NCBI GenBank assembly: GCA_012838955.1
Contig: DUOH01000008.1
Location: forward strand, 1 to 33,014
Source of the DNA: Bacillota bacterium
Lineage (GTDB): Bacteria; Bacillota; UBA4882; UBA10575
Reading direction: 5' to 3'
Length of the DNA stretch: 33,014 nucleotides
Shown here: in pieces, positions 3,398 through 33,014 of the stretch
How positions within the stretch are numbered: position 1 is the stretch's first letter
Layout: each line of letters begins with the position of its first letter
Made by a program: the position numbers and the translations under genes
Notes under the pieces: model-generated
Seen by the model: only the letters and a program-made list of their open reading frames with translations
Databases searched by the model: none
Told to the model about the DNA's origin: nothing

Positions 3398-5958
<2,561 letters not shown>

Positions 5959-5989
5959 CTTGGTCCTCCCGATTCACAATAAAGTAAGT

Positions 5990-6018
5990 TATATATTTAT
6001 TCTATCATAATAAGACAA
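5990..6018 (-). promoter_or_regulatory. internal promoter of the lacI-type gene
   Basis: On the minus strand TTGTCT (6013-6018) and TATATA (5990-5995) are 17 bp apart, ending about 30 bp before the start codon of the regulator. No copy of the TCTAAACGGTTAGA operator lies here, so the regulator may be made constitutively in addition to read-through from the upstream operon. Confidence 0.5.
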
Positions 6019-6049
6019 TTCCCCTGTTTTTCTGTGGAATTATTATTCA

Positions 6050-6862: not shown

Positions 6863-6945
6863 ATTTGCCCCTCCTCGCCTAGTAATTAATTTAATATACT
6901 ATCGATCCTGCCTGCTTCAGCACCTACTCTCTTCTGAACATCATC

Positions 6946-7881: not shown

Positions 7882-7927
7882 CTGCTCCCACCTCCGTCTG
7901 TCAGAAGTTAACCCCAAAACAGGATAT

Positions 7928-7948
7928 GGGGGAGGAGTCTCCTCCCCC
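7928..7948 (-). repeat. GC-rich intercistronic hairpin after the solute-binding protein gene
   Basis: A near-perfect inverted repeat, GGGGGAGGAG (7928-7937) and CTCCTCCCCC (7939-7948), starts 6 nt after the stop codon of the solute-binding protein gene. No U run follows, so it is not a standard terminator. Hairpins in this position (the malE-malF case) protect the 3' end of the binding-protein message and give it higher expression than the permeases; that role is inferred here. Confidence 0.7.
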
Positions 7949-7954
7949 AACCGG

Positions 7955-9262
7955 TTACGGTAATTTACCTGTAATCACATTGGAGTAGCCAAACTCCTTC
8001 ATGGTTTTAATAACTTCCCTTTCCCACCTGGGTAGAATATCGGCGAACCGCTTAATTTTACCATCAACATAATCCTGGATGAGAAGGCTTAGACTCTCGT
8101 CTACATTGGACATGATCGGTAAAGCAACAAAAGTGGTATTTACCAGCTGATGGGCTTCCCATAAAGTCTCACTGATGTTCTGATCGCCAAAGTACGCATC
8201 GGGTCCGGCCACCTCTTCAATTACCTCTTCGTATCTGGTGGAAACCATGATCGGCAAATTACTGTAGTTATGTAAGCATTTGAGGGAAGCGGGATGAGAG
8301 TTTAACCAGTTGACAAAGATCGCGGCTGCTTCCGGGTTTTTAGAATGTGAGGTCACATAGAAACCGGAACCACCGATCATCCCGTTATGGGGTTTAGCCG
8401 GGTTCCATTGCGGCGGAATCGCTACCCGCCATTTTCCTTTTGCATCAGGAGCATTGTATCTGAGCCATTCGGCAAACCAACAACCGATTTCCACAACAGC
8501 CGTAGTTCCTTCATTCAAAGAATTATACCAGTCGGCGTTCCACCACATTTCCAGATCGAGGACACCCTCGTCAAACCATTTGCCCCAGGTCTCAAAGACT
8601 TCTACGGCAACCGGATTGGTAAAATTAATATACCAGTTGCCATCGGAGTAATCACAAACCTTTCCTCCGGCTTCCCAAATCTGACCAATCCACCACATGG
8701 CATTACCGATTGGCGCCGCAAAGAACTTCAGATGCGGAGCTGCTTTCTTAAATTTTCTGGCCTGTTCGATAAATTCTTTCCTGGTCTTTGGCACAGTCAG
8801 TCCATACTGATCAAAGAGATCCTTCCGATAAAACATCGCCATGGCGCCACTATCCTGCGGGGTTCCATAGATCTTTCCGTCCATGGCGCACCAGCCCATG
8901 GCCGCTTCACCATATAATTTCTTGAAGTTCTTCTCGGACAACCAGCGATTAATGGGCTGAAAAGCGCCGAGATCCATAAACTGCGGACCGTATGAGTATT
9001 CTACCATTAGCACATCAGGCAATCCGCTCCCGGCCGACAATGCAGTCTGTACTTTCTCGTAATGCACGCCAAAGTCTTCCCAGACGACTTTGATATTGGG
9101 ATAGAGCTTCTGAAATTCCTCAATGGAGTAATTCTCGTTACTGGTCCATGCCCACATGGTGATAGTAGTCGGTTTCCCCTTATATTTAGGGTAGTAGTCA
9201 ACGGCCAAAGCCGCAGATCCGACCAGCAGTAAGACTAGAGCAATCTGTATGATCCTTTTCAC
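7955..9262 (-). CDS. extracellular sugar-binding protein of a CUT1 ABC importer
   Basis: Binds an oligosaccharide outside the cytoplasmic membrane and delivers it to the two permeases downstream. The 435-residue product has a signal peptide (MKRIIQIALVLLLVGSAALA) ending in a signal-peptidase-I-like ALA site. No cysteine lies at the cleavage site, so it does not look like a lipoprotein. The mature part matches the family-1 solute-binding fold: TTITMWAWTSNENYSIEEF, then YPNIKVVWEDF, GLPDVLMVEY, and DGKIYGTPQDSGAMAMFYR. Start is GTG at 9262 with GGAGG 8 nt upstream. First gene of its operon, behind a strong promoter with two LacI-type operators. Arabinoxylo-oligosaccharide is the likely ligand by context only. 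Confidence 0.9.
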   Translation of the reverse strand: MKRIIQIALVLLLVGSAALAVDYYPKYKGKPTTITMWAWTSNENYSIEEFQKLYPNIKVVWEDFGVHYEKVQTALSAGSGLPDVLMVEYSYGPQFMDLGAFQPINRWLSEKNFKKLYGEAAMGWCAMDGKIYGTPQDSGAMAMFYRKDLFDQYGLTVPKTRKEFIEQARKFKKAAPHLKFFAAPIGNAMWWIGQIWEAGGKVCDYSDGNWYINFTNPVAVEVFETWGKWFDEGVLDLEMWWNADWYNSLNEGTTAVVEIGCWFAEWLRYNAPDAKGKWRVAIPPQWNPAKPHNGMIGGSGFYVTSHSKNPEAAAIFVNWLNSHPASLKCLHNYSNLPIMVSTRYEEVIEEVAGPDAYFGDQNISETLWEAHQLVNTTFVALPIMSNVDESLSLLIQDYVDGKIKRFADILPRWEREVIKTMKEFGYSNVITGKLP

Positions 9263-9421
9263 TTCATTTGCCTCCCTATTTTTAATTTGCCATCCTGCCG
9301 TTTGCTCAACGGCTCACCTCCCCAGGGAATCTCCTGGTTTCCTCTGCGTCGTTCTTCGCCATCTATCACCTCCAAGCTCTGCCTTTGTTACGGAGAAGGA
9401 CTTATTATTTTACAGAGTGAT

Positions 9422-9435
9422 TCTAAACGATTAGA
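9422..9435. promoter_or_regulatory. LacI-type operator, distal copy (solute-binding protein operon)
   Basis: TCTAAACGATTAGA, a palindrome with the central CG of LacI-family operators. It lies about 60-75 bp downstream of the predicted transcription start and 56 bp (start to start) from a second copy, which would suit looping or cooperative repression. Confidence 0.75.
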
Positions 9436-9477
9436 TTTTTATGTAAAAATATTAATCGCCGCAAAAGTGATAGAGTT

Positions 9478-9491
9478 TCTAATCGGTTAGA
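9478..9491. promoter_or_regulatory. LacI-type operator, start-site copy (solute-binding protein operon)
   Basis: TCTAATCGGTTAGA, sharing 12 of 14 positions with the copy at 9422. It covers roughly the first 15-20 transcribed bases, just downstream of the -10 box, the classic place for a repressor to block initiation. Confidence 0.8.
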
Positions 9492-9502
9492 TTATAGTTT
9501 AT

Positions 9503-9531
9503 ATATTATAAAAAATTCTTTTTTTTGTCAA
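9503..9531 (-). promoter_or_regulatory. strong promoter of the CUT1-lacI-GH51 operon
   Basis: A perfect TTGACA (9526-9531, minus strand) is followed after 17 bp by TAATAT (9503-9508); a TATAAT at 9505-9510 is an alternative with 15-bp spacing. The spacer is an A/T run. The leader to the GTG start is about 230 nt and carries both operators. Confidence 0.7.
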
Positions 9532-9577
9532 GTTTTCCTTAGATCGTCTCGTTTCCCTCGAATTGCAGAAGGCGTTT

Positions 9578-11545
9578 CTAAGGCTTAAAGCACGATCTTG
9601 CTCTAGAAGAATCCCCTCTCCATACTTTGATCCTGTTTTTTCCCTGGCGTAAATCAGCAATTGGGCCCAGTACACTCTTGTCCGCCCTTTTTTCTCCTAA
9701 ATAGTCGTGATCAAGTATTACTTCACTTCCATTTGGGTCTTCAAAATCAGCATCAGCCACCCTTACCCTCTTCAGGGTCTCAGTAGTTTGGATCTCCCCG
9801 AGTATCGCCGTAAAATTTTCCGGGAGGCAACAGACAAGATATACTTCATCTCCTTCTTCAGTAATACTGATTTCCGGGTCAAAGTCTTCCAGCACAAGCT
9901 TTGTCTCTTCTTCCTCAAATGGAACCGCCCCATTCAGATAGAGGTTGTTGTTAATGTAGACAGGCTGATTAACATAGTAAAATATCTCTACATCACCCGG
10001 CGTTTGATGTACTTTCTCCAAATACTCCTCTAGTGAGGTGGTATGCCCATTGTACTGAGCGGTCCCGACCCCTCCCCACGCCCCTCTCCCCACAAAGATG
10101 TTATTATAAAAGCGGTCATCCCCGCCGAAAACAATGGAGAAACCCGCTATTTTTGTGCTATGGGGAAGGTGATATGGTGTTGACCGGTCAAGAACTTTCT
10201 GCTGAACCATTTTCCCGCAGATTAGATTATTAACATAAGCCCCGCCTTGGGAGAAATTGTCCAAGGTATACTCTGAGGCGAAGATATTGTGGTCAACAAG
10301 ATAAGGTCCATGACTGACTTCGACAAACAGGTCACGATTATTCCGATAAAAAAGGTTCCGGCTGACTCTGGTCCCCTGTGCCTGCCAATCCAACCATATT
10401 CCCAAGGAACAATCATGAATCCGATTATCATGGATCTGTACATCTAGGGCGGCATGTAGCTTAATACCGGCAATTTCATATCCATAGAATTCTCTTTTCA
10501 AGGCAATATTGTAGATGTGATTATTATGTATTTCACTGAAGACACAGCCCAGATGACCTACGATCCCGTTTTGTCCGCAATCATAGATGATGTTATTGCG
10601 AATAATATGAGAACCAACGGTTTCTCTACTCCAACCCGCATGTGTTGCACTGAATACCGATTCTATTTGATAGTTATATCCCGGTTTATCTCTGCGTTTT
10701 GTCCGGTAATGATCGCCTGTTGATCTTTGGGTGCCGATACTAATCCCGCTACACTTGGAGTCATGGATAATGTTATCTTCAATGATCCAACCTTTACTCC
10801 AGTGGCAACCCAATAATCCCGGTTGTTCAGCGGTCGGGGGCGCCCAGGGCGTCGCCGCCTGCGCCATTTCAAAGCCTCTTACTGTAATATAGTTTATACC
10901 TATTCTGTCCGGGTAAAAACAGCATCTCCTGACATTGATCTCGACCAGCTCGGTAAGGGGATTATGGTCATGAAAATTAGCATAGATCGTGGTGTTTTCC
11001 TCATCGACCTCGGCATACCAGAGATACTTCGTCTGCTCCGGATTATGTACGGGAACTGCCTTACCTGTCCAGTGATCTATCACTTCCCTCCTGACGCGGG
11101 GATTTCGCAACTCCGCGAAACTCCCGGCCTCATAAAAGGAGAGCCCGTTTAGATACACCTCACCCAGGTGTTTTCTTCTTCCTGTATCAGTCGTAGCAAG
11201 CCAGTCACCGAAGATCTCTTCAGTATAGGGGTTGTAGTCCCCGAAGAAATCATTGGGGAGCACTGTTTTCCAGATGGACCCCTCAACCCGTTCCCAGTCC
11301 CGGATCTGTTCGGAACCTTTAATGACTACCTTCTCTCCTTCCGCCGCCTGGTAGGTGATTCTCCTGCTATTACTTAATCCTGTGTTCCGGGGTCTCACCC
11401 ATTCCCGGTATTCTCCGGCATGGACAATTATGGTATCCCCGGCTTGCGCCAGAGAAGCCGCTTTATTAATTGTCAGAAATGGATCTTCTCTTGTTCCCTG
11501 CCCAAAATCTGAACCGTTTTTCGCCACATGATATTCATTAGCCAT
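9578..11545 (-). CDS. xylC: beta-xylosidase, GH120 (right-handed beta-helix)
   Basis: Releases xylose from short xylo-oligosaccharides. The start chosen is the ATG at 11545, six nt after AAGGAGGA (the adjacent ATG at 11548 is too close), giving 655 residues. There is no signal peptide, so it acts in the cytoplasm. The N-terminus EYHVAKNGSDFGQGTREDPF and many N/D/I-rich beta-helix turns (IIEDNIIHDSKCSGISIG, IIRNNIIYDCGQNGIVG) match the family. Asp386 in LGIWLDWQAQG and Glu409 in DLFVEVSHGP are 23 residues apart, the spacing of D382 and E405 that I recall for the Thermoanaerobacterium saccharolyticum XylC catalytic pair. It is the last gene of the Opp-type operon, 106 bp after the ATPase gene. 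A generic label of beta-helix repeat protein would miss the activity. Confidence 0.88.
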   Translation of the reverse strand: MANEYHVAKNGSDFGQGTREDPFLTINKAASLAQAGDTIIVHAGEYREWVRPRNTGLSNSRRITYQAAEGEKVVIKGSEQIRDWERVEGSIWKTVLPNDFFGDYNPYTEEIFGDWLATTDTGRRKHLGEVYLNGLSFYEAGSFAELRNPRVRREVIDHWTGKAVPVHNPEQTKYLWYAEVDEENTTIYANFHDHNPLTELVEINVRRCCFYPDRIGINYITVRGFEMAQAATPWAPPTAEQPGLLGCHWSKGWIIEDNIIHDSKCSGISIGTQRSTGDHYRTKRRDKPGYNYQIESVFSATHAGWSRETVGSHIIRNNIIYDCGQNGIVGHLGCVFSEIHNNHIYNIALKREFYGYEIAGIKLHAALDVQIHDNRIHDCSLGIWLDWQAQGTRVSRNLFYRNNRDLFVEVSHGPYLVDHNIFASEYTLDNFSQGGAYVNNLICGKMVQQKVLDRSTPYHLPHSTKIAGFSIVFGGDDRFYNNIFVGRGAWGGVGTAQYNGHTTSLEEYLEKVHQTPGDVEIFYYVNQPVYINNNLYLNGAVPFEEEETKLVLEDFDPEISITEEGDEVYLVCCLPENFTAILGEIQTTETLKRVRVADADFEDPNGSEVILDHDYLGEKRADKSVLGPIADLRQGKNRIKVWRGDSSRARSCFKP

Positions 11546-11651
11546 CATTCTCCTCCTTCGGTATTGTCGCCAGGTCACATTATTGCTCTACTCAGGCCAG
11601 TCCGGTAATTATGTTTTGCTGTATAGAAAAACTATCAGATTTGAAATCCCC

Positions 11652-12668
11652 TTATCTATATAAATGGCATCTTACATACCTCTCCTCGACTTGATAATTT
11701 TCAGGTTCACATTCCCTACAGATGGCTTTAACTCTCGGACATCTCCCTGAAAATTTACAGCCGATCCGCAAATATTCTTTGGTCTCCAGATCACTCAAGG
11801 CGATCTCGCTCTCCCATTTATCAGCCGGATTGGGTACAGGAATTGAGGCTTTTAACAATTGCGTATAAGGATGCAACGGGTTATCCAGTACCTCTTCGAC
11901 TGAACCCATCTCCACGACCTCTCCTCTCAGCATAATGGCGATCCGGTCACTGACATAATAGGCGGTTGCCAGATCATGGGTAATATAGATGATACTGACC
12001 CTTTGTTCTTCCTTTAGTCTTTTAAACAAATTTATAATCGACATCCTTAAAGAAGCATCGATCATTGATACAGGTTCGTCGGTAATTAATAAGGACGGGT
12101 TGGTAATTAATGCTCTGGCAATCGAGGTCCTCTGCAGCTGGCCCCCGGACATTTCGCTGGGGTATTTATCTTTGATTTCAGCGAGGGAAAGTCCCACTAA
12201 GGCCAAGGATTCTTCCACCAACTGACCTTGATCTGCCTCTGCCAGGTTTTTTTCGGTTTCATAGAGATAAGTATGGATTTTTTTCAAAGGATTAAAGGTT
12301 TCAAAGGGATTTTGAAAGACCGGTTGCACTTCTTTCATGAATTCTTTTTCTCCATTAAGTTTAGCTATTTCTTTACCTTTATATCTTATACTGCCGGAAG
12401 TGGGTACTTCAAAACCCAGGATTAGTTTGGCCACAGTTGATTTGCCGCTACCGCTCTCTCCCGCTAGAGTGAATATTTCCGGTTTATCCCGTTCTAGAGA
12501 GAAGGTGACTTTATTGACCGCCGCTATTTTGGATTTTGCAAGTCCTTGGCCCTTGGTATAAACTTTCGTTAAATCATCGACCACAAGTAGTTTGGAAGAT
12601 GCCTCTTTGACCCCAACCTCTTCTGGTCTTCTCTGTTTAATCTGAGTATTCTTTGAGTCTGCCTTCAT
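11652..12668 (-). CDS. oligopeptide-type ABC transporter ATP-binding protein (OppF/DppF-like)
   Basis: Second ATPase subunit of the five-gene importer. Walker A is AGESGSGKST, the signature is SGGQLQRTSIARA, and Walker B is LLITDEPVSMID. The C-terminal domain carries the Cys-containing GCKFSGRCPRVKAICRECEP segment typical of Opp/Dpp ATPases. About 25 hydrophilic residues precede the ABC domain. The ATG at 12668 immediately follows the TAG of the upstream ATPase gene (TAGATG) and has AAGGAGG at 8 nt, so translation is probably coupled. Opp-type transporters carry xylo-oligosaccharides in Thermotoga and other anaerobes, which fits the GH120 gene downstream better than a peptide substrate. Confidence 0.92.
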   Translation of the reverse strand: MKADSKNTQIKQRRPEEVGVKEASSKLLVVDDLTKVYTKGQGLAKSKIAAVNKVTFSLERDKPEIFTLAGESGSGKSTVAKLILGFEVPTSGSIRYKGKEIAKLNGEKEFMKEVQPVFQNPFETFNPLKKIHTYLYETEKNLAEADQGQLVEESLALVGLSLAEIKDKYPSEMSGGQLQRTSIARALITNPSLLITDEPVSMIDASLRMSIINLFKRLKEEQRVSIIYITHDLATAYYVSDRIAIMLRGEVVEMGSVEEVLDNPLHPYTQLLKASIPVPNPADKWESEIALSDLETKEYLRIGCKFSGRCPRVKAICRECEPENYQVEERYVRCHLYR

Positions 12669-13655
12669 CTAGCATCCTCCTTTCAGAAAGCAGGCCACCC
12701 GATGGCCCTTTTCCAACTCCAGTAATTCCGGGTTCTCTCTTCTGCAGTGTGCAGTGGCTTCCGGACAACGCGGATGAAACCTGCATCCGGATGGCGTATG
12801 TATTAAGGAAGGCGGAGCTCCAGGCGCACTGACCCGGATTGATTTATCTCCCAATTTGGGTAATGATTTTAATAGCATCAACGTATAGGGGTGTTGGGGT
12901 TGATTGAATATTACATCCACATCTGCTTCTTCAACTATTTTCCCAGCGTACATAATGGCCAGTCGATCACATAAATTAGCATGGATCGCCAGATCATGAG
13001 TAACCATGATTAAGGTATTCTGTTGCTCTTTTTTAATCTTCTTGATTAACTGCACTACTCCCCGTTGCACTACTACATCCAAGGCAGTGGTCGGCTCGTC
13101 AGCAAAAATTATGTCCGGCTTTAAAATCGTGGCTAAAGCAATCGTAAGCCGTTGTCGCATTCCTCCAGACAACTGATGGGGAAAAGCCTGCATTATACTC
13201 CAGTCCAGTCCCAAGGCATCCAGATGCTTCTTTACCATCTCTTCAAACCGGCTCCGCTCCATGCTTCCAAGATGGGCACGGATCAGATCTTGAAACGCCT
13301 TTTTGATCCGTCGTACCGGATTTAAGACACTCATTGAGCCCTGGGGAATATGGGAGATCCGGGCGCCACGCACCTGACGCCGTTGTTTATCATCCTTTAA
13401 AGACAAAATATTCAAAACATCATCGCCAAAGTTGTAGATTACTTCTCCCTCCAGAACCTGTAACGGTGGTTTGAGCAGTCCACTGACCGCTTTTAAGAGG
13501 GTTGATTTACCGCAACCCGATTCACCGGCAATCCCATATATCTCATCCTTGTTTACCTGAAAGGAGACACCGTCAACAGCTTTAACCCTGTAGAGACGGC
13601 CGTATTTCTCTGTGATATAATAAGCCTTTAACTCTTTTACCTCTAAGATCGGCAT
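12669..13655 (-). CDS. oligopeptide-type ABC transporter ATP-binding protein (OppD/DppD-like)
   Basis: First ATPase subunit. Walker A AGESGCGKST lies near residue 41, the signature is LSGGMRQRLTIALA, Walker B is IIFADEPTTALD, and the switch His is in MVTHDLA. The C-terminal GCRFHPRCPEATAHCRRENP motif has the four-Cys pattern of OppD/DppD proteins, linked with an Fe-S site in some relatives. Length (328 aa) is normal. The ATG at 13655 has AAGGAG at 7 nt and starts 4 nt after the permease stop. It forms the nucleotide-binding pair with the OppF-like subunit next to it. Confidence 0.92.
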   Translation of the reverse strand: MPILEVKELKAYYITEKYGRLYRVKAVDGVSFQVNKDEIYGIAGESGCGKSTLLKAVSGLLKPPLQVLEGEVIYNFGDDVLNILSLKDDKQRRQVRGARISHIPQGSMSVLNPVRRIKKAFQDLIRAHLGSMERSRFEEMVKKHLDALGLDWSIMQAFPHQLSGGMRQRLTIALATILKPDIIFADEPTTALDVVVQRGVVQLIKKIKKEQQNTLIMVTHDLAIHANLCDRLAIMYAGKIVEEADVDVIFNQPQHPYTLMLLKSLPKLGDKSIRVSAPGAPPSLIHTPSGCRFHPRCPEATAHCRRENPELLELEKGHRVACFLKGGC

Positions 13656-13659
13656 GGTT

Positions 13660-14520
13660 TCACTCCTTCTTGATCAGCTGTAATCTGGTCCTGGGATCAA
13701 GATACTCGCTGATGCTAGTAGAAAGCATATATAAAGCGAGAATCAACAGAATACAGATGATGATCGGGGTCAATATCCAATTCCACTTTTCCAAGAATAT
13801 GGCCTGGTATTGCAGGGCCCAGTAGATCATCGTCCCGATGGTGGGGGTATTCAGATTTGAAAGTCCCAGCATAGATAGGGTTACCTCCATTCCGATTACC
13901 CAGATGACATTATTTATGGTCGCAGCCAGAATCAGAGGGATGATATAAGGCAGATGCTCCGTAGTTATAATCTTAGATGTTTTCATTCCTGATAAAACTG
14001 CTGTTTTCGTAAATTCTCTCTCCTTCAGACTTAGAATTTGCGAACGAAAAAGCCTGGCATCCCAAGCCCAGCCAAATAAGCCAATGATTATCCCCAGCAC
14101 AATAATGCTTAGCGAAGTCCGGAGGATACTGGCGATCAGTATTAAGACGGGAAATAAAGGAATAATGATAAAACTGTCGTTGATTGTCATCACGATCCGG
14201 TCAAAGCGGCCTCCCTTATATCCGGCCAATAAACCCAGGACAATTGCGATCATCCGGGAAAGCGAAGCCGCAATTAATCCCAGTAATAAAGAGTTTTTAA
14301 TGGCAACCATGGTTTTCCAAAGGATATCCTGACCCATAGAATTGGTACCCAGTGGATGTTCCCAACTTGGAGGCAAGTCTCTGGGAACAGTATTCCAGGC
14401 TTTCATATTATAAGGTGTAAATAGGGATATTAGCGCGATCATGATAAATAGCACCAAAATTGTAGTTCCAAAGCTAAATCGTTTGTCGTGTTTGAATAAT
14501 TCCTTGATCACCCTAGACAT
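13660..14520 (-). CDS. oligopeptide-type ABC transporter permease (OppC/DppC-like)
   Basis: Membrane subunit of the Opp-type importer. The ATG at 14520 has GGAGG 8 nt upstream and avoids overlap with the preceding gene, so I prefer it to the longer frame (to 14559); the protein is then 286 residues. The sequence HPLGTNSMGQDILWKTMVAI is the N-terminal OppC signature, and the EAA-like loop appears as KEREFTKTAVLSGMKTSKII. The C-terminus YLDPRTRLQ is typical. It pairs with the OppB-like permease encoded 13 nt upstream. Confidence 0.92.
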   Translation of the reverse strand: MSRVIKELFKHDKRFSFGTTILVLFIMIALISLFTPYNMKAWNTVPRDLPPSWEHPLGTNSMGQDILWKTMVAIKNSLLLGLIAASLSRMIAIVLGLLAGYKGGRFDRIVMTINDSFIIIPLFPVLILIASILRTSLSIIVLGIIIGLFGWAWDARLFRSQILSLKEREFTKTAVLSGMKTSKIITTEHLPYIIPLILAATINNVIWVIGMEVTLSMLGLSNLNTPTIGTMIYWALQYQAIFLEKWNWILTPIIICILLILALYMLSTSISEYLDPRTRLQLIKKE

Positions 14521-14533
14521 CTCTTCTCCCTCC

Positions 14534-15538
14534 CTATTGATACCTGACTCTTGGGTCAAGTAATGGATAGATCAAATCGATCACCAGCATGGCAGTGGAA
14601 ACCCCTACAATGGAAAAGATATTGATCCCCATAATCAAATTGTAATCCCCGGCCAAGATGGCAGAATACAGTAGATTACCAATACCGGGATATGAGAATA
14701 CAATTTCCGTAATTAAGGCGCCCCCAAAGATGAAACCAAGATTCAGAGCCAAGCCTGTTATTTGTGGAATAAGCGCATTCCGCATAATATAGTGCAGAAT
14801 AACCTTCCTTCTGGGCAATCCTGAAGCCTCGGCATAAACCACGTAATCTTCTTCTACTATATTGGAGGCGACATTCCTCATCTGTAAAAACCAGCCGCCG
14901 ATCTCCAGCATGACCATGGATAAGATGGGCAGAAACGCATGTCTGAGCAGATCAAGGAGGAATTTAAAGTTAAAACCTATTTCAGCTCCCATACTATACC
15001 CCCCGGCCATCGGAAAAACAGGAAAGACAAAGGCCAAGACGATCAACAAGACCAGAGCCATTATGTAGTATGGGATCGGCCTCATCCCCATGGCAAAGAC
15101 TTCCATAAACCTTGTTAATAGTGAATTGGGGAAGCTGACCTTGATTCCCCCAAGAATCGTCCCGATTAACCAGGAGAGCATTAAGGATACTAGTAACAGT
15201 CCGACTGTCCAAGGTAAAGATGTTTTTATTAGCTCAATAACAGGGGTGGGAAACTGGGTGAAAGAAGGGCCCAGATTCCCCGTACACAACCTTTTCCAGT
15301 AAATAAGATACTGTTGAAATAGACCGCCCTTCAAACCATACAATTCCTGCAGTGTTTCTCGCATTTCTTCCACAGCCGCCGGATCCAAGTACTGGCCCTG
15401 GGCGGTCATGCGATTCAGTTGGTGTTCGACCGGATCCGAAGGTAATAACCGGGGAATAATAAAGACCATGGTAATTCCGATCAATAAAACAGTTATATAT
15501 TGGATAAAGCGTGGGATGAAATATTTCTTAAACACCAT
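14534..15538 (-). CDS. oligopeptide-type ABC transporter permease (OppB/DppB-like)
   Basis: First membrane subunit of the importer, 334 residues. It has an N-terminal helix followed by LPSDPVEHQLNRM, then five further helices. The conserved EEDYVVYAEASGLPRRKVI stretch is the EAA loop of OppB proteins, and the end LIYPLLDPRVRYQ is family-typical. GGAGG lies 4 nt before the ATG at 15538 (7 nt before a GTG three bases on). It begins about 80 bp after the binding-protein gene, beyond an intercistronic hairpin. Confidence 0.92.
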   Translation of the reverse strand: MVFKKYFIPRFIQYITVLLIGITMVFIIPRLLPSDPVEHQLNRMTAQGQYLDPAAVEEMRETLQELYGLKGGLFQQYLIYWKRLCTGNLGPSFTQFPTPVIELIKTSLPWTVGLLLVSLMLSWLIGTILGGIKVSFPNSLLTRFMEVFAMGMRPIPYYIMALVLLIVLAFVFPVFPMAGGYSMGAEIGFNFKFLLDLLRHAFLPILSMVMLEIGGWFLQMRNVASNIVEEDYVVYAEASGLPRRKVILHYIMRNALIPQITGLALNLGFIFGGALITEIVFSYPGIGNLLYSAILAGDYNLIMGINIFSIVGVSTAMLVIDLIYPLLDPRVRYQ

Positions 15539-15584
15539 CAGCCCTCCACAATACGATATTTATTGCATTTTTTATTTTTTCAGA

Positions 15585-15606
15585 AGCCTCCCTGCAGAGG
15601 GAGGCT
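15585..15606 (-). repeat. GC-rich intercistronic hairpin between the OppA-like and OppB-like genes
   Basis: AGCCTCCCT (15585-15593) and AGGGAGGCT (15598-15606) form a perfect 9-bp stem with a 4-nt loop, 11 nt after the binding-protein stop codon. In the direction of transcription it is followed by A-rich rather than U-rich sequence, so it is not a normal terminator. By position it should stabilise the binding-protein message, like the hairpin at 7928-7948 in the other operon. Confidence 0.75.
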
Positions 15607-15617
15607 CCTTCAACTCC

Positions 15618-17495
15618 TTATTTCCTTCCGGTAGGCTCCAGGAACGGCAAGATGAACTTAAAGTTGGGCCAATGGTACCAAGGGACGGCGTAAGGATTTT
15701 CACCGCCGGGGTAATTTCGCCAATAATAGGTGTCCAGGCCCATAAAGCCAGGGAAAGAGGCCAGTGAAACTCCTGGTTGTCCATGAATTAATATTTTCGC
15801 CGCTTCAATTCCCAGATCGATAACTTCAGGATCATTGTAACCTGTGTTTTCCATTTTTTCGATGATCCGGTCCAAATCCTGATGAACCCATCTTGATTGA
15901 TGGCCAACCCGTTTTTCACCGATCGGCTTAAAGTAGGATGACTTAAATTCATGAAATGCCCTGTACAAATCGATGCCGGCGCCAAAGGGCTCTGCGGCCG
16001 GTTGGCCGCCCACGACCTGATAATCACCGGTCTCTGTTAGTGATTCAACCTGTTCTGTCGGTCTGGCTTCACAATCGATCCCGAATTCCTGCCACTGATT
16101 GGCGATGGCAAAAGCCCATTTAAAAGAGGGGTTAGTCGCGGAAGTGAGGCAGACCAGCTCAATTTTCCACGGGGTGCCATCGGGTAATAACCATTTACCA
16201 TTGCTATTCCGGGTAAAACCATTCTTTTTCAAGAGTTTTTCCGCAAGGTCGGGGGAGTGTTTCCACCAGCCGTAACCGAACATCTTTCTGATCTCTTGCT
16301 CTGTTTCAGGGACCGCATATCCTCTTTCTCTGGCTGCCTCTGCCATTTCAAACGGTAGATTGGGATTATAGGGTTTATACCGCTCACCGTCTACTTCAAT
16401 GGTATACTCCTCGAGCCAAGGTTGTAACCTCTCATAATAGGTTTCATAATAGGGTAATAGAGCCGGAATGTAGGCCGGCGAAAAGGCTACGGCCCCATTA
16501 TAGGCGGTCAGCGCCAGGCTTTTCGCATCCAGCGCCAGATTTAAAGCCCAACGCACCTCTCTATTGTCGAAGGGCTTGACCAGAGTATTGAAGGCTGCCC
16601 CTGTCACACACGGATGCAGCAATTCCGCTAAGGGGAAGTCCTTATAGTACCCGCGGGCATGTTTGTTCTTCGCCAGAACGACCTGGAGCGATTCAGGGGT
16701 CAAATCAGCCATGTCCAGCTGATGATTGATTTGTGCCATCGCCTTTTTGGCGGCGTCACCATAGTATATAAACTTGACATACTTTGGCGCCGGCTTTCCA
16801 TAGAGCATGCCAGTTGCTGTCCTTTGCCAATCTTCTCTCCGCTCATACAGGAACCAGTAACCGCCCAGATCGTATTCTACGAGTTTATAGGGGCCTGTAC
16901 CGATCGGTGGATTGAACTGAAAACTTAACGGGTCCTTCACCTTTTCAAAAATGTGCTTTGGTAAGATGCGGCAGGTGCCCCACCTGTCCAAAAGCTGATA
17001 GTGGAACCGGGAATTAGCCTTCTTAAGCTCAAATACTACTGTATAGTCATCTGTTTTATATACTCGTTTAATATTCTGATTAAACTGTGTGTGGTAGCCA
17101 AAACCCGGAGTATCCATACAGAGCTTAACAGTGTAGACTACATCATCGGCAGTAAATTCAACACCGTCACTCCAGAAAATTCCTTCCCGTAGATTAACCG
17201 TGAGTTTCGTAAAACCGTCGGTATAAATCGGATTTGTTTTGGCCAGTACATTAATGATCTCTCCGGTAACATAATCCGCCATCCATAAAGGATCCAGTAT
17301 TAATTGCTGGAGGCCTTTATCATTCCCTACCCAGGTCGCCCAGTAATTAAAGTTCCCCGGATTACCTACTTTACCGGTGAGAATATCAGCGATTAGCATT
17401 TCATTACGAGGGGGGTTAATCGCCCATATTGAACAGGACAATATCAAGCAAAGAACAGTCAGAATCAGAAATAACGCTGTACTCTTCGATTTCAT
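15618..17495 (-). CDS. family-5 (OppA/DppA-like) solute-binding protein
   Basis: Extracytoplasmic binding protein of the Opp-type importer. I choose the ATG at 17495 (AAGGAGG 5 nt upstream; the frame to 17525 lacks this site), giving 625 residues. The signal peptide has a basic start (MKSKST) and a long hydrophobic core ending in CSIWAINPP; the single Cys there does not make a clear lipobox. Family-5 hallmarks are present: FTKLTVNLREGIFWSDGVEF, FTADDVVYTV, PIGTGPYKLVEYD and NREVRWALNLALD. It resembles the large OppA-type proteins that bind xylo- and other oligosaccharides in Thermotoga more than peptide binders (from memory). It heads the operon that ends in the GH120 gene. Ligand inferred: xylo-oligosaccharides. 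Confidence 0.9.
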   Translation of the reverse strand: MKSKSTALFLILTVLCLILSCSIWAINPPRNEMLIADILTGKVGNPGNFNYWATWVGNDKGLQQLILDPLWMADYVTGEIINVLAKTNPIYTDGFTKLTVNLREGIFWSDGVEFTADDVVYTVKLCMDTPGFGYHTQFNQNIKRVYKTDDYTVVFELKKANSRFHYQLLDRWGTCRILPKHIFEKVKDPLSFQFNPPIGTGPYKLVEYDLGGYWFLYERREDWQRTATGMLYGKPAPKYVKFIYYGDAAKKAMAQINHQLDMADLTPESLQVVLAKNKHARGYYKDFPLAELLHPCVTGAAFNTLVKPFDNREVRWALNLALDAKSLALTAYNGAVAFSPAYIPALLPYYETYYERLQPWLEEYTIEVDGERYKPYNPNLPFEMAEAARERGYAVPETEQEIRKMFGYGWWKHSPDLAEKLLKKNGFTRNSNGKWLLPDGTPWKIELVCLTSATNPSFKWAFAIANQWQEFGIDCEARPTEQVESLTETGDYQVVGGQPAAEPFGAGIDLYRAFHEFKSSYFKPIGEKRVGHQSRWVHQDLDRIIEKMENTGYNDPEVIDLGIEAAKILIHGQPGVSLASFPGFMGLDTYYWRNYPGGENPYAVPWYHWPNFKFILPFLEPTGRK

Positions 17496-17645
17496 TTTTT
17501 CCTCCTTAATAATTAATTTCTTCAACCGCCCGTCTCACGACGCTTAACACTCTTCATCTCCCACCCCTCTCCTTGGTTGTTTTTTTCGAAGAATTTTAAG
17601 TATGCCAAACGGGTCTATTTATCTACTAATTTGTATATTATATTT

Positions 17646-21358: not shown

Positions 21359-22258
21359 TTATCTGTTGATGGAACGCGCCATGCGGGAATACGTATGCCT
21401 TCTTCCTCGAATTGCTATGCTATAGGTCATGATATTCTCCGGAACAGCGATCCCCGGATACCCGGCGTCCCCCAGGTGATGCAGATCAGCGCCTGCCATT
21501 TTACACTGCAGCGCCAATTGGCGGATAGTCTCAGCATCCGCCCCCTCCTGGGAAGTGCCGATGGTGGTGATGACCAAGACTCCCCGGTCATGGGCGAGCT
21601 TTACTAAGCTCCTGACGTACTCCAGGGTGAGGCCGGGAACTGTTCCCGGAGCAGGCATCAAAATCAGATCGCAGCCTGCTGCGGCAAAGGCCAGGACATC
21701 TTCGGGGGTAATGATCCCTTCGCCGCTCTCCCGCCAGACCCCAGCAGCATGCATCTTTCCAGCGGCGATGATCAAGTCGGCGCCCAGTTCCTGACTGATG
21801 CTACTGATGGCGTTGAGAATTCCTGCCTTGGAGACGGCGGTTCCCGGATTTCCAGTAAGAACAATTAGGTCAGCGCCCATCTCCCGGACCTGGCGGGCAA
21901 TGCTTACCGAGGCCCGGCGACCCAGCGGTAGGTTCGAAGTGGCCTCGTCTACAGGCTCCAGATTAACCCCGATTAATCTACCGGTCAGCCGCTTAATCTC
22001 CCGGATGATCTCCGTTGGAGCCGTCTCCGGTAAACCGTGAAAGACCGGATGTTCCGGATCGAACATATTCAGGAGAAGCAGGTCTGCGCCGAAGGCTGCC
22101 GCCAGTTCCGCATTGCTGATATTATAGAGTAACGGCTGCACTGTCCCGATTACTTCACTAATCAGTACCCGGCCTTCACTGGCCTTGATCGAAGCCAGAA
22201 TCTCCTGTTTGCTCATGGTGGCAAAGTCCGAGGCATCGCAGTCCAGAAACCTTTTTAT
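21359..22258 (-). CDS. TIM-barrel-type protein of the DUF7916 family
   Basis: Member of a Bacillota family often mislabelled haloacid dehalogenase-like hydrolase; it lacks a HAD DxD motif. I see alternating beta/alpha segments ending in glycine-rich loops (LIVLTGNPGTAVSKAG, LILMPAPGTVPGLTLEY, ITTIGTSQEGADAETIRQLA, GADLHHLGDAGYPGIA), as in phosphate-binding TIM barrels. The homologous N-terminus (KRFLDCDASDFATMSKQEI) begins 14 codons before the first ATG, which is at 22216 and has no ribosome-binding site. The only initiator that fits is ATA at 22256-22258, 9 nt after a perfect AAGGAGGTGA. That gives 299 residues. It lies between nagE and crr, so a role in GlcNAc or glucose use is likely. The reaction is unknown. 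Confidence 0.75.
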   Translation of the reverse strand: MKRFLDCDASDFATMSKQEILASIKASEGRVLISEVIGTVQPLLYNISNAELAAAFGADLLLLNMFDPEHPVFHGLPETAPTEIIREIKRLTGRLIGVNLEPVDEATSNLPLGRRASVSIARQVREMGADLIVLTGNPGTAVSKAGILNAISSISQELGADLIIAAGKMHAAGVWRESGEGIITPEDVLAFAAAGCDLILMPAPGTVPGLTLEYVRSLVKLAHDRGVLVITTIGTSQEGADAETIRQLALQCKMAGADLHHLGDAGYPGIAVPENIMTYSIAIRGRRHTYSRMARSINR

Positions 22259-27193: not shown

Positions 27194-27206
27194 GGCCGAT
27201 ACGGCC
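27194..27206. terminator. short hairpin between convergent ptsH and TPR gene
   Basis: GGCCG-ATA-CGGCC forms a 5-bp GC stem in the 14-bp space between the convergent stop codons. The flanks are AT-rich but lack a proper U run in either direction. It may act as a weak bidirectional terminator; nothing better is visible nearby. Confidence 0.3.
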
Positions 27207-29371
27207 TACTCCAATCTAAACCCTTCCCAGGCTTGATCAAGCTCAGCCAGCCACCGGTCTTGTTCGGCAGGCGGCAGTAACCGGACCAATTGGATAAAGA
27301 AGACTCTGGTATGCACGGCTTGAAATTCGGAGACTTCCCGCATGGTTTGGGCATACTTCAGGTAAAACGCTAAAGCTTCTTGGCGTGCAGCCGGGTCCGC
27401 GCCTCTTACCGTCTCTAAGCACAGGTATTCCAAGTTAAACGGGGATTGCTTCAGCCAGAAATCGATTTTCTTCCCGTCCGGAAGCGCGGCCTCCTCCTGC
27501 CGTAACCCGTTTAATTCCCTGCTGATCCTGGCCGCCTTTTCACCGACTTCCTTCCCCTTCCGGACCCGGGCGAGCATACTTTGCCAGTAGGTCTGCTCCG
27601 GAAAGATGAAGGCGGCGGTCTTGGCGAAGCGGGTCAGGTGTAAGTGGTCACCGGAGAAGGCCCGCTCCACCAAGAAAGCAGTGCGCCTACTCCGGGGGAA
27701 AAGGTACCACGCGTTCAGCGCAGACCGGGCGGCCTCTTTTGCTTTTCCTGCCAACAGTAAAGCATCGGCCCGGATGATCTCCACCTCCGCCTGGAGCCAC
27801 GGTTCGATCCGCTCATCCCTGAATTCATACTTTTCCAGCCAGGAAAGGGCTTCATCTGTTTTCCCCAAGGCCAGCGCTTTTCTGGCCTGATAAAATGGGG
27901 TAATTTCCGCGGTGGGCTTTGTAACCGGGTTTTCCTCCCATTCCCGGATGGTGGCGGTCAACCCTCCCTCAAACAGGCTCATATAAGCAAAGAGCAAACT
28001 CCACATGTCCGCGTGTCTAATATATCTTTGTAAGAATAGCTCCGCTGCCAAGCCGTTCTCAAATAATTCTCTGAAATTAAGCGCGGTATAGTAAAGGAAC
28101 CAGGGCAGCTCCGCCCGCGCGCAGTTGGCATAGGCGTAAGTATGGGCGGTGATTGCTTCCTCCCAGTACCCAAGGGTCCAAAAGGCATAGCCGATCTGTT
28201 TTAATTCCGTATCAAAATGGCCGACACTTTGGAAGTAGCCACTGTTCAGGGCCGACATATAAAGCGGTATGGACTTGTCCGGCGCCCCCCTGACCCGGAA
28301 TTGAAAGGCCAACTCACTGAGGAGCGGATCATAAAAGCTGTTCTGACCGGCTTTTTCAACATAGGAAGCCACTTCTTGGAGTGAGCAGGAGTCTCCATAA
28401 TAATTTAAGCGACTATACTCCACTCGCGGGTCACCCGGCATAATCCTGGCCGCGTACTCAAGGCTGCTTTCAAAGTTGTCACGCAAGGCCTGATCCGGAC
28501 AGTAAGCCGGGACAAATTCCCGGAGTACGCAGACGACGAGATGCCCCAGGAGGGCTTTGGCCCGGCCGGTCTGTCCCCAGCACTCATCCTTCATCTGCCA
28601 ACCCCGCTGATTGGCGTACCAGAATTGCACCTCGCCGAAAGCCGGATCTCTGTGTAGAATCTTCTCATAAACCGCCCATTCTTCCGGAGAGTGCTGGTCA
28701 ACATGGAAGATCTCACCGAACCACCGCACAGTCTCCAGGTGGGCAGTCATCGGCCTGGTCAGTTCGGCGGCCAAGCCACTGGAGACCGGTTGTCCGCGGA
28801 AAGCCATCCAGTCTTGAACCATCTGTCCCATCAGGGTAAAGTAGGCTGTGGGTTTGGTGTACTCTTTTTGCCAGATCTCCCGGCCTGTATGGTCAAACAC
28901 CACCAGACTCCCTTTGTAGCCACGCTTTGTTTCGATGATCCGACCGCCCAAGGCATGCGTGCCATTCCATTTGCTAATGTAAGCGGCGATTCCCTGAGCA
29001 TCGTCCGTCCGTAAGTTTCGGGAGTCCGGATCGCTGCGGAATACATACATCGGATGATGCATTGAACAATTATCCGGTACAAAATCGAATTTAAAAGATA
29101 AGAGCGACGGAAAGGTCAGCGATTGGTTGGGATCCCCCTTCCCGTCCTGACAAAGGTAGTCAAAGGACAAGTAGACCGGGCTGAACATGTCGGCCCCTGT
29201 AAGCACGGGATGGGTAAACCACTCTTTCACCAGGCTGTCCCCATCCAATCTTTGCCGGTTCTGGGCTGGAGAATCATTAAAGACCGAAGTCTTCTGGCTA
29301 GCTGCTCCTGCCGCGCTGACGGCCGAAAAAACCAGAAAACACAGGAGAAAATATACTAAGCAACGTTTCAT
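27206..29371 (-). CDS. exported TPR-like protein with a TolB-N/FlgO-like N-terminal region (function unknown)
   Basis: No specific family recognised. The 721-residue product begins with a signal peptide (MKRCLVYFLLCFLVFSAVSA, then AGA-type cleavage) and no lipobox. Residues about 130-200 (KWNGTHALGGRIIETKRGYK, then GSLVVFDHTGREIWQKEYT) look like the small alpha/beta domain that precedes TPRs in TolB-N/FlgO-like proteins. The rest is helical with degenerate TPR-like pairs (SLEYAARIMPGDPRVEYSRL, YALAYANC-type turns, ALALGKTDEALSWLEKYE, ADALLLAGKAKEAARSALNA). The start is uncertain among three consecutive ATGs (29371-29377), all behind GGAG. It follows the pseudoprotease-TPR gene by about 105 bp on the same strand, so the two probably work together outside the membrane. 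Scaffold role inferred. Confidence 0.6.
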   Translation of the reverse strand: MKRCLVYFLLCFLVFSAVSAAGAASQKTSVFNDSPAQNRQRLDGDSLVKEWFTHPVLTGADMFSPVYLSFDYLCQDGKGDPNQSLTFPSLLSFKFDFVPDNCSMHHPMYVFRSDPDSRNLRTDDAQGIAAYISKWNGTHALGGRIIETKRGYKGSLVVFDHTGREIWQKEYTKPTAYFTLMGQMVQDWMAFRGQPVSSGLAAELTRPMTAHLETVRWFGEIFHVDQHSPEEWAVYEKILHRDPAFGEVQFWYANQRGWQMKDECWGQTGRAKALLGHLVVCVLREFVPAYCPDQALRDNFESSLEYAARIMPGDPRVEYSRLNYYGDSCSLQEVASYVEKAGQNSFYDPLLSELAFQFRVRGAPDKSIPLYMSALNSGYFQSVGHFDTELKQIGYAFWTLGYWEEAITAHTYAYANCARAELPWFLYYTALNFRELFENGLAAELFLQRYIRHADMWSLLFAYMSLFEGGLTATIREWEENPVTKPTAEITPFYQARKALALGKTDEALSWLEKYEFRDERIEPWLQAEVEIIRADALLLAGKAKEAARSALNAWYLFPRSRRTAFLVERAFSGDHLHLTRFAKTAAFIFPEQTYWQSMLARVRKGKEVGEKAARISRELNGLRQEEAALPDGKKIDFWLKQSPFNLEYLCLETVRGADPAARQEALAFYLKYAQTMREVSEFQAVHTRVFFIQLVRLLPPAEQDRWLAELDQAWEGFRLE

Positions 29372-29477
29372 CATCATCAACTCCAAAAATCAGCATCCCG
29401 GAGAAGGCAAAGTATAAACCGGGGATCAAAGAAGCTTCCCTAAAAAGCGACAGTCATAGAAGATCAGTCTTCATTGG

Positions 29478-32333
29478 TTAATCACTGGTCTCCGCGGTGG
29501 AAATCACCTTCCTCAGCTCCTCCGCTCTCTCCTGATTCAACTCTTTTAAGATCCGGTACTCTTCGTCCGCAGAAGCCAGGTCACCCAGTTTTATGTAACA
29601 ACAGCCTAGATAATAATGGGTTTCTACATGGGAAGGCTCGTTCTTGGCCGCTTCTTCCAGATACACCAGGGCCGTATGATAGCGTGCCTGCAGATAATAA
29701 ATTCGGCCCATACAACAATAAGCCTCCGTATCCTCCGAGTAATACCTGGTGGTAGCCGTCTGCAAGGCCTTCATGGCTTCTGCATACTCCTGCTGTTCAA
29801 AGTAGATCAGACCCAACCTGACATAAACATCTCCAAGTGGTGTCCGGTATTCTTCTCCGGCGGCTGAGGCCTTATTATACATGGCAATGGCTTCGTCATA
29901 TTTTCGCAGTTGGCCGTAGGTCTTACCCAATCCGTAATAGACCCAAAACCGCCCCGGCCGCGCCTGGTCCCATTGCTCATAGACCGCAAGCGCTTCCTGG
30001 TACAGGCCCTGTTCGTAATAGAAATCAGCCAATGATTGATAGCCCCGTTCATAAGTTTGGTTTAAGGCGATCGACTGCTGAAAAGCGTCAACGGCCGGTG
30101 CGAACTGACCGCTCTCCGCCAACGTCAGTCCCAGGCTGCAATAGATCGTATAATTCTCCGGATCAACCTCTAAAGCTTTTTGATAATAGTTGATAGCGGT
30201 GGTATAGTCCTGTAAGGCATGATAGACATTGCCCAGGCCGTTGAGGACCGAAATATTGGCTGGCTGATAGAGCAGGGCCCTTTCATAGGTGGCAATCGCC
30301 TGCTCGTATTCTTCTTCCAGTACGTAACATTGGGCTAGATTAATATAACCCTCTATATAGTCCCTTTGTAAACTGATGACCCGTTCAAAAAGGTTGGTGG
30401 CTTCCTGAAGCCTGAACGCAGCCTGGTATGAGCGGCCCAAGCAGTAACAGACCTCAGGATCATCAGGGTTCCGTTTAAACGCTTCTTCGTAGGCGTCCAG
30501 GGCATCCCTGAACCGGTAGTTTCGCCAGTAAGCGTCACCCAGCAGCTTATAATAGTCCTTCTGGTAATAGGCTTGCGCCAGATAGCTGTGGGCCTCCGGG
30601 TACAATGGATCAATATGCAACAAAAATTCAAACATATCAATAGCCTCGGCGTACCGGCCGTCTTCGTAGTATTGTACTCCCTGCTCAAACAGGCTTTTCA
30701 TCATCTCCGGATCCAAAGCGGTCATCTTGGCGAAGGCCTGCATCGCCTCATAGGCAAAGAATTGGGTATCAGAAGCCAAGCCTAAATAGTAATAAGCCGC
30801 GGCCGACTCGGGATTATACTGTAAAAACTCTTGAAGAGCCTCTATAGCCCGGCGGTAATCTCCAAGATAAAAAGAGGAGTACCCCAACTCATACCAGGCG
30901 GCGATGAGATCAGGCTGTAATTCCAAGGCTTTTTCGTAACAGTTGATGGCTCCCCTGTAATCTTCGTTGTTATGAAAGATCAGTCCCAAATAGAGGTAGG
31001 CGACGGTCTCCTCCGGATCGATCTCCAGGATCCGTTGGAAGGTCTCTTCTGCTTCAGCATAGCGTTTCAGTTGATAGTAGAGGCTTCCCAGTTGGTAATA
31101 GGCTGGAATATACCCGGTATCTATGGTCAAAGCCAGATTATAGTATCCAATCGCCTGCTCCGGAGCCTGGAGCAGCTGATAAGTTAAGGCAATATTATAA
31201 CAGGTATGTAAATCACCCGGCTGCAACCGGTAGACCTTGATAAAGGCGGCCAGACCCTCTTCGTATTTTCCCAGCGCGCAATAGGAAAGCCCCAGATAGA
31301 AGTAGGCGTCACCATAAAACGGGTTCTTCTTGATTACTTTCTCAAACTGCTCAATCGCCTCGGTATAACGCTCCAGATTCTGCAGGACATAGCCATGTAA
31401 AAAAAGGGTGTCCACATCATCCGAACCCGCCCGGCGCATCTTCTCCAGTAAGGCCGCGGCCTGCTCATATTGGCCCAAGTTAAGCCTGACGATGAGCTCG
31501 CTATAGTTAAACGTTGCTGATTTAGTCTTCTTCACCCTTTTATTCCAGGCCTCCAGAGTCTCACTCTCCACGGCAACCACCGGCCGGTCCTTAAAATCGA
31601 GTTGCCCGGCGGGTATAATCAGGTTCTCCATCCGCCTGTCCACATCATGCAACTGCACAACGCCTATTAACTCCCCTTCGGTGTTCAGCACCGGCCCCCC
31701 GGTCAACCAGAAGGAAAAAACGTCATCGATCCCACCGTACATGCCCAGAACAGGTATGGAACTAATCCCTGCTATTCTTCTGGCAAAAATCGTCTTCTCC
31801 ACCGGAAGAGGTCCGCCCAGAAGATACGCTTCCTCCCCTTGTTCGAAGAAGAAATCAGTAAGGGGAATGCAGGCGACAGGAGCTGACAGCGCTTCAGCAG
31901 CAAGCAACACCAGATTACAGGTGGGATCCTCAGCAACGACTCGAAACTCCGTATAGGTTTCCCCGGCATACGTCTTCACCTCTATCGCAGAAGCGCCCAA
32001 ACATAGCCTCAGGTCGGTCAGGAAATATCCCTCTTCGTTAATGAAGAAACCGCTGCCCACCCCGATAACCTGTCCCTGCTTGTTATAGGCGTTGAGTATC
32101 GCCACTGCTTGCTGCCGGGCTTGGACAGCCGGAGGAATCTCCTCAAAAGCCAGGGCCGGGGCGGAACCAAATAGCAAGCCCACGGCGATCAGGTAGAGGA
32201 TGAGCGCCAGTGCCTTCCCTGACAGTTTCGGCAGAAATAATGTTGGTGTCGTGTCCGGCGCCCCAGTAGCCGCTAAAGCGCGCCTCCCGGTCAACCCGCC
32301 CATACCGCTTGGTAGATTAAGACTAATCCGCAT
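29478..32333 (-). CDS. exported trypsin-like pseudoprotease fused to about 19-20 TPR repeats
   Basis: With the ATG at 32333 (AGGTGAAAGGG just upstream; the frame extends to 32390) the protein has 951 residues. A hydrophobic signal segment at about 39-62 ends in SAPALAFEE, after an unusually long N-region. Residues about 90-235 resemble a DegP/trypsin-like domain: GSGFFINEEGYFLTD, then EDPTCNLVLLA and LTGGPVLNTEGELIGVV. The catalytic positions appear as Arg109 for His, Asn140 for Asp and Thr211 for Ser, so proteolysis is unlikely. Residues about 270-945 are 34-residue TPRs (for example AYYQLGSLYYQLKRYAEAEE) with one unit cut to about 15 residues in the middle. A surface or periplasmic scaffold is the best guess. 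Start position moderately uncertain. Confidence 0.8.
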   Translation of the reverse strand: MRISLNLPSGMGGLTGRRALAATGAPDTTPTLFLPKLSGKALALILYLIAVGLLFGSAPALAFEEIPPAVQARQQAVAILNAYNKQGQVIGVGSGFFINEEGYFLTDLRLCLGASAIEVKTYAGETYTEFRVVAEDPTCNLVLLAAEALSAPVACIPLTDFFFEQGEEAYLLGGPLPVEKTIFARRIAGISSIPVLGMYGGIDDVFSFWLTGGPVLNTEGELIGVVQLHDVDRRMENLIIPAGQLDFKDRPVVAVESETLEAWNKRVKKTKSATFNYSELIVRLNLGQYEQAAALLEKMRRAGSDDVDTLFLHGYVLQNLERYTEAIEQFEKVIKKNPFYGDAYFYLGLSYCALGKYEEGLAAFIKVYRLQPGDLHTCYNIALTYQLLQAPEQAIGYYNLALTIDTGYIPAYYQLGSLYYQLKRYAEAEETFQRILEIDPEETVAYLYLGLIFHNNEDYRGAINCYEKALELQPDLIAAWYELGYSSFYLGDYRRAIEALQEFLQYNPESAAAYYYLGLASDTQFFAYEAMQAFAKMTALDPEMMKSLFEQGVQYYEDGRYAEAIDMFEFLLHIDPLYPEAHSYLAQAYYQKDYYKLLGDAYWRNYRFRDALDAYEEAFKRNPDDPEVCYCLGRSYQAAFRLQEATNLFERVISLQRDYIEGYINLAQCYVLEEEYEQAIATYERALLYQPANISVLNGLGNVYHALQDYTTAINYYQKALEVDPENYTIYCSLGLTLAESGQFAPAVDAFQQSIALNQTYERGYQSLADFYYEQGLYQEALAVYEQWDQARPGRFWVYYGLGKTYGQLRKYDEAIAMYNKASAAGEEYRTPLGDVYVRLGLIYFEQQEYAEAMKALQTATTRYYSEDTEAYCCMGRIYYLQARYHTALVYLEEAAKNEPSHVETHYYLGCCYIKLGDLASADEEYRILKELNQERAEELRKVISTAETSD

Positions 32334-32710
32334 GTACCCTTTCACCTGCTTTACGCTAATGCATCGTACTTCTACGTTAGGCGGCATCACTTCTGTAGCG
32401 GGTAGAATACTTCCGCATTAGGCTTTTACTTTAATATTAGCAATTGAGCATTGTAAACCAACTTCCGGGGATGATCAATTTTATCGGCCAGATCCGTCTC
32501 CATATATGGCTCTGTAGGCTTTCTTAACTGTATAAGATCAAGCCCTGGCAAGGGCAGGGCAGATGGAGAAGAACAGTCGCCCCTGTCTAAGCTCACAGAC
32601 TCTTGTTTATTATGGAAATAATTCTGCATCTATCTGTAAATACCTCCAACCTGGAGCATAAGCTTTTCGGGTAAAGCGGAAGGGTTAGACGGTTTAAGGC
32701 GTCATATCTG
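32334..32710. other. gene-poor stretch upstream of the TPR pseudoprotease gene
   Basis: No convincing gene. A 67-codon minus-strand frame (32426-32629) has GGAGG 13 nt before its ATG, too far for good initiation, and a composition unlike its neighbours; I do not accept it as coding. A G/C-rich patch near 32540-32560 (GCCCTGGCAAGGGCAGGGC) can fold weakly. The promoter of the TPR gene should lie here but I cannot place it. Confidence 0.4.
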
Positions 32711-32834: not shown

Positions 32835-33014
32835 TCAGGCAACTTTATGAGCCTGCATACCGTGGTAGACCTGAGATGGGCAATTGCCTCCAATTGAAGA
32901 ATGGGGGCGATAGGTGTTGTACTCATGAATATATTGGTTTAAAGCAATCCTCAGTTCCCGCGGGATATCAAATTCATTAATGTAAACACAATCGTATTTC
33001 AAAGTGCGAAAAAA
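32835..33014 (-). mobile_element. partial IS3-type transposase (integrase-core OrfB C-terminus)
   Basis: The last 59 codons of a transposase enter from the right edge and end at TGA (32835-32837). The product contains RTLKYDCVYINEFD, IALNQYIHEYNTYRPHSSIG and NCPSQVYHG. This is the C-terminal rve-core pattern of IS3/IS150-type OrfB (LKYE..Y, YN..RPHSSLGG.TP..VY), including the final part of the region that carries the catalytic Glu. No stop or frameshift is seen in the visible part, so the element may be intact beyond the window. Confidence 0.8.

Follow-up and report, generated by a model that had tools for sequence, protein, structure and literature searches.

A putatively exported trypsin-like domain with a replaced catalytic triad, fused to a long TPR array, in a Bacillota bacterium

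Introduction

HtrA-like domains are usually taken as quality-control proteases. A gene of a Bacillota bacterium (contig DUOH01000008.1, assembly GCA_012838955.1) encodes a 951-aa protein in which a domain of this type stands before a long array of tetratricopeptide repeats (TPRs) and seems to have lost its catalytic residues; automated annotation would file it under serine proteases or simply under TPR proteins. This raises the questions of whether the domain can still cleave proteins and, if it cannot, what its fold may be used for. A sequence-only reading of this DNA had proposed an exported binding module joined to a large extracytoplasmic scaffold. Here, we examine the gene, its surroundings in the stretch of 33,014 nucleotides that was analysed as a whole (the window), and its relatives in other genomes.

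Results

The gene and its domains

The open reading frame runs on the minus strand from an ATG at 32333 to a stop codon at 29478, with no stop inside its 951 codons; a GTG start at 32390, which would add 19 aa, is a possible alternative. The following parts were distinguished:

29478..32333, minus strand: whole gene of the putatively exported S1-like and TPR protein, 951 aa (open reading frame and translation)
32151..32333, minus strand: predicted N-terminal export signal, with a long n-region and a hydrophobic core at about residues 42-58 (read from translation and sequence)
31569..32150, minus strand: trypsin-like (S1C/HtrA-like) beta-barrel, residues 62-255, catalytically degenerate (Trypsin_2, PDB sequence matches, AlphaFold and Foldseek)
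29526..31505, minus strand: TPR solenoid, residues 277-936, 19 helix pairs and an unpaired helix at 579-591 (Pfam TPR families, motif count and AlphaFold)

The first ~61 residues contain, as judged by eye, a hydrophobic stretch that ends in APALA followed by F. On this reading the protein is presumably exported, with signal cleavage likely near APALA-FEE (residues 58-63).

The trypsin-like domain was recovered by several routes. Pfam Trypsin_2 matched the protein above its curated cut-off in a search of its own genome (E 2.3e-7) and the S1-like domain alone with E 1.3e-7. Human HTRA2 was the best phmmer match in the PDB (E 8e-10), and a profile that included two relatives reached HtrA proteases in the PDB with E values down to 1e-26. 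Modelled by AlphaFold together with 13 related domains, the domain forms the expected strands, with block pLDDT values mostly of 84-93 over about residues 72-172 (the first ~110 residues modelled), falling to 39-78 over much of the second half of the barrel, where one block stands at 90. Foldseek placed this barrel closest in the PDB to 7sjy (the S1C-NTF2 part of RsgI9), followed by DegS, Deg1, DegP and DegQ, with E values of 1e-13 to 2e-15 for the best matches (7sjy, DegS, Deg1 and DegP). By its Trypsin_2 and HTRA2 matches the S1-like domain is not a chance match, and both the family assignment and the structural comparison with DegP/HtrA that the sequence-only reading had proposed place it in the S1C (HtrA/Deg) fold, which is marked by a double barrel and by motifs of the GSGF and GxSGGP types.

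The C-terminal part consists of tandem 34-residue helix-turn-helix repeats and was matched by Pfam TPR families with E values down to 7e-87. Motif scoring counted 18 canonical units, while the full-length AlphaFold model (mean pLDDT 85.5) contains 19 helix pairs, the lone helix at 579-591 and a C-terminal capping helix, in good agreement with an earlier estimate of 19-20 repeats. HtrA/Deg proteins are characterized by one or more C-terminal PDZ domains; in the full-length model the TPR array instead follows directly behind the barrel, and none of the best 25 Pfam matches is to a PDZ domain.

Loss of the active site

In three separate alignments the columns of the catalytic His, Asp and Ser are occupied by the same replacements, which are precisely those read from the sequence before:

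32007..32009, minus strand: codon of R109, in the column of the catalytic His
31914..31916, minus strand: codon of N140, in the column of the catalytic Asp
31701..31703, minus strand: codon of T211, in the column of the catalytic Ser

These columns are flanked by the invariant GSGFF and GGP motifs, and two residues before T211 a tryptophan (W209) stands in place of the invariant Gly of the oxyanion hole. None of the features that define an S1C (HtrA/Deg) peptidase, i.e., the His-Asp-Ser triad and the oxyanion Gly, is thus retained. Forty-one columns were regarded as conserved as they are kept in at least 80% of 78 aligned relatives (one of which, L059, is an incomplete fragment). The S1-like domain keeps 20 of these, mostly Gly, Pro and core residues (GSGF, T106, G166, G173, P175, GGP, G220, G224 and IP). 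The 21 lost positions include the triad, the oxyanion Gly, active-site neighbours and positions of the substrate site; among the consensus residues lost are N107, H109, V110, D140, A142, G177, G185, S188, Q201, G209, S211 and A239. By comparison, the next most divergent of the 78 relatives has lost 12. The loss of the whole triad with retention of the structural motifs, as suggested earlier, is therefore strongly supported and extends to the oxyanion hole.

A triad shifted to other residues is not apparent and was rejected, as the only His in the S1-like domain, H229, lies outside the triad columns. A frameshift as the source of the altered motifs was likewise rejected, by an indel-free alignment (see below). 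For a metal site of the MamO type (C139 stands directly before N140, like H148 before D149 in MamO), no second ligand was seen. Judged from these residues, proteolysis by the classical mechanism would be excluded.

Relatives and the origin of the triad loss

The closest relative of the domain (L005 in genome G022) occurs in another family of the same class; no other relative near its level was found in 29 genomes of this class or in 398 genomes of the phylum. This protein has an export-like signal and an S1 domain with the His-Asp-Ser triad intact, followed by five detected TPRs, and the S1 parts of the two proteins can be aligned for 182 columns with 29% identity and no indel. A further relative that is cut by a contig end (L006) also carries the triad, as do the two other Trypsin_2 proteins of the host genome (392 and 397 aa). 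The His or the Ser is missing in none of the 78 aligned relatives; one of the relatives, L081, has an Ala at the column of the catalytic Asp in a profile alignment, which may be a misalignment. A search for an orthologue that shares the triad loss found none among 149 relatives, the 29 class and 398 phylum genomes, or in one scan of genome contigs, one of viral contigs and plasmids. The survey of homologues proposed by the sequence-only reading thus gives a negative answer to the question of whether the loss is family-wide: the 951-aa protein stands alone among the relatives found. As it shares its architecture with L005, in which the triad is intact, whereas full loss occurs only here, its triad-less state is, on this comparison, derived, and would have arisen without damage to the frame. 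The 951 open codons and the 182 indel-free columns would be expected under continued selection on the fold, which we infer from this single sequence. In codon usage, the S1 part gives a weaker signal than the TPR part and the neighbouring genes.

S1-TPR proteins elsewhere

The fusion of an S1 domain with TPRs is in itself not unusual, since L005 has it with an intact triad, and a RefSeq name for such proteins (“tetratricopeptide repeat-containing serine protease family protein”) is already in use. An exported S1 domain followed by TPRs is common to the 951-aa protein, L005, L094-L096 and L098 (export judged by eye). Cyanobacterial S1-TPR proteins from plasmid records have kept the triad. The proteins of Nostoc (WP_341531444.1) and Acaryochloris (WP_235112820.1) and L005 resemble the 951-aa protein in their export-like signal, single S1-like domain and TPRs, but they have kept His, Asp and Ser, and about 3-7 TPRs are detected in the RefSeq S1-TPR proteins and L005 compared to 18-19 in the 951-aa protein.

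Two betaproteobacterial genes, both unannotated in the collection used, come closer in one respect:

L097:1276-3468: S1-TPR protein of Variovorax paradoxus, 731 aa (Trypsin_2 E 8e-10)
L099:1854-3824: S1-TPR protein of Burkholderia cenocepacia (45% identity over the query)

Like the 951-aa protein, they combine a Trypsin_2-like domain with a long TPR array behind it and lack the catalytic Ser. In our reading of the alignments the Ser column holds Asp or Pro; His and Asp are present, unlike in the 951-aa protein, from which their sequences are very distant. Because of this distance, the nucleophile was probably lost independently in this pair, which may possibly represent a conserved betaproteobacterial family of pseudoproteases with TPRs. 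The pair suggests that catalytic loss in S1-TPR proteins is recurrent.

Host genome and gene neighbourhood

The host genome (2.5 Mb in 67 contigs) contains four Omp85 matches; the same search found nothing in Bacillus subtilis and Lactococcus lactis, whose genomes served as controls. The cell therefore very probably has an outer membrane (i.e., is diderm), and the 951-aa protein would then probably be found in the periplasm or at the cell surface. Its immediate neighbours in the window are:

27206..29386, minus strand: candidate partner gene (P0002) for a 726-aa protein with a signal-like N-terminus, 91 bp downstream of the 951-aa gene
32838-33014, minus strand: C-terminal end of an IS3-like transposase (rve domain), running off the contig end, ~450 bp upstream of the 951-aa gene

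The 726-aa protein shows weak, sub-threshold similarity to TPRs. Searches of Pfam, NCBIfam, PADLOC and the PDB gave no match to it, and a TolB/FlgO-like domain that its N-terminus seemed to contain on inspection was dropped for want of a Pfam match. Its relatives in the 398 phylum genomes are limited to a short C-terminal piece in one genome (G009, contig C60; L055:9477-9896, plus strand), a 140-aa open frame with 53% identity to its C-terminus. A gene on the opposite strand lies just upstream of this frame, where the rest of the homologue should be, and the frame looks like a remnant.

Beyond the 726-aa gene, PTS genes are read in the opposite direction, and further on there is a hemicellulose cluster (3398-17525, minus strand) with genes for an arabinofuranosidase, a LacI regulator, a sugar ABC transporter, GH120 and an oligopeptide-type ABC transporter. 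A DUF7916 protein (21359-22216, minus strand; E 8e-123) is encoded beside PTS N-acetylglucosamine/glucose genes and a GlcT-like antiterminator. Overall, the gene order provides no clear clue to a partner or ligand of the 951-aa protein, and Rfam gave no match in the window. A role in anti-phage defence was rejected, as the matches in PADLOC are weak and of a general TPR type.

Discussion

Comparison with known pseudoproteases

Three described proteins offer precedents for an S1C-like domain with a non-catalytic role. MamO of Magnetospirillum magneticum is HtrA-like, has Thr at the Ser position as the 951-aa protein does, shows no protease activity and binds metal (PMC4794232). It differs in having kept His116 and Asp149, in its di-His metal binding and in its C-terminal TauE transporter domain, with no TPR array described in the text examined (PMC4794232). 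PflC of Campylobacter jejuni is an HtrA homologue that lacks the conserved triad and acts as a periplasmic structural scaffold building the medial disk of the flagellar motor; it has PDZ-like domains, and the text examined describes no fusion to TPRs (PMC12222027). RsgI9 of Clostridium thermocellum, an anti-sigma factor which, unlike the 951-aa protein, has an NTF2-like domain, carries an S1C-like protease-like domain described as binding polysaccharide, including cellulose (PMC12203970); its ectodomain (PDB 7sjy), with an S1C-like sensor/binding domain, is the best structural match of our S1-like domain. The roles of binding module and scaffold would, by analogy, agree with these precedents. 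We found no description of an HtrA-TPR pseudoprotease in the literature.

Possible functions

Our analysis points to a non-proteolytic extracytoplasmic binding scaffold as the most likely nature of the 951-aa protein. More specifically, we consider it reasonably probable that it is an exported pseudoprotease in which the S1 fold is reused for binding while the TPR superhelix serves as a scaffold. The ancestor would have been an S1C-type protease that was exported and carried a TPR array at its C-terminus, a type still present in a related member of the class. Its S1C domain would have lost nucleophile, base, acid and oxyanion hole, with the barrel retained as a folded module for recognition. 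Carried across the inner membrane by the putative signal to the periplasm or surface of the diderm cell, this barrel may hold a peptide, protein or glycan that it does not cut, and the superhelix of 19 repeats could bring partner proteins together, among them perhaps the putatively exported 726-aa protein encoded next to it.

The main rival to such reuse is decay, i.e., that the S1 part has been drifting since it lost its function and only the TPR part, or nothing, is still used. The transposase remnant at the nearby contig end, the survival of only half of the conserved S1 positions, the lack of an orthologue in 28 class relatives and, as a mild point, the weak codon signal in the S1 part would all fit this. 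We nevertheless regard decay as unlikely, as the frame and the alignment with the nearest relative are undisturbed, structural Gly and Pro residues have been kept selectively, and the core of the barrel is modelled with good confidence.

Improbable, too, is a role as a regulator by which one of the genome's two intact HtrA proteins would be activated or targeted, in the way that MamO, independently of its own triad, is required for MamE-dependent proteolysis (PMC4794232). The HtrA genes are on contigs C24 and C31, without genomic linkage to the 951-aa gene on contig C52, and in relatives two HtrA proteins occur with no comparable partner.

Binding of polysaccharide at the cell surface, as by the RsgI9 ectodomain, would be in line with 7sjy being the first Foldseek match and with the hemicellulose genes in the window (arabinofuranosidase, GH120 and sugar ABC transporters). 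However, 7sjy is ahead of DegS by a small margin only and these genes are separated from the 951-aa gene by about 18 kb that include unrelated genes, so that we judge this role distinctly improbable. Although Thr acts as the nucleophile in some other protease classes, residual proteolysis by T211 with an unusual base is highly improbable given the missing His and Asp at the triad positions, the Trp in place of the oxyanion Gly and the position of H229.

Implications

HtrA-like pseudoproteases are known (MamO and PflC), and the binding scaffold favoured here is an unusually stripped form without close relatives. The S1-TPR architecture is not new; what sets this protein apart from the relatives found is the full loss of the triad. 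A wider, quite doubtful but conceivable, extension is that exported S1-TPR proteins repeatedly become non-proteolytic scaffolds, in which case this protein and the Variovorax and Burkholderia proteins would each have come independently to a widespread class, so far without a name, of extracytoplasmic pseudoprotease-TPR receptors capturing substrate-like peptides or glycans in the envelope. If the reuse of the S1 fold for binding is correct, the 951-aa protein would represent an envelope protease turned scaffold, of which the likely active ancestral type survives in a related family, and cleaving and non-cleaving S1-TPR proteins would become directly comparable. The Variovorax/Burkholderia pair suggests that this route from protease to scaffold may have been taken more than once.
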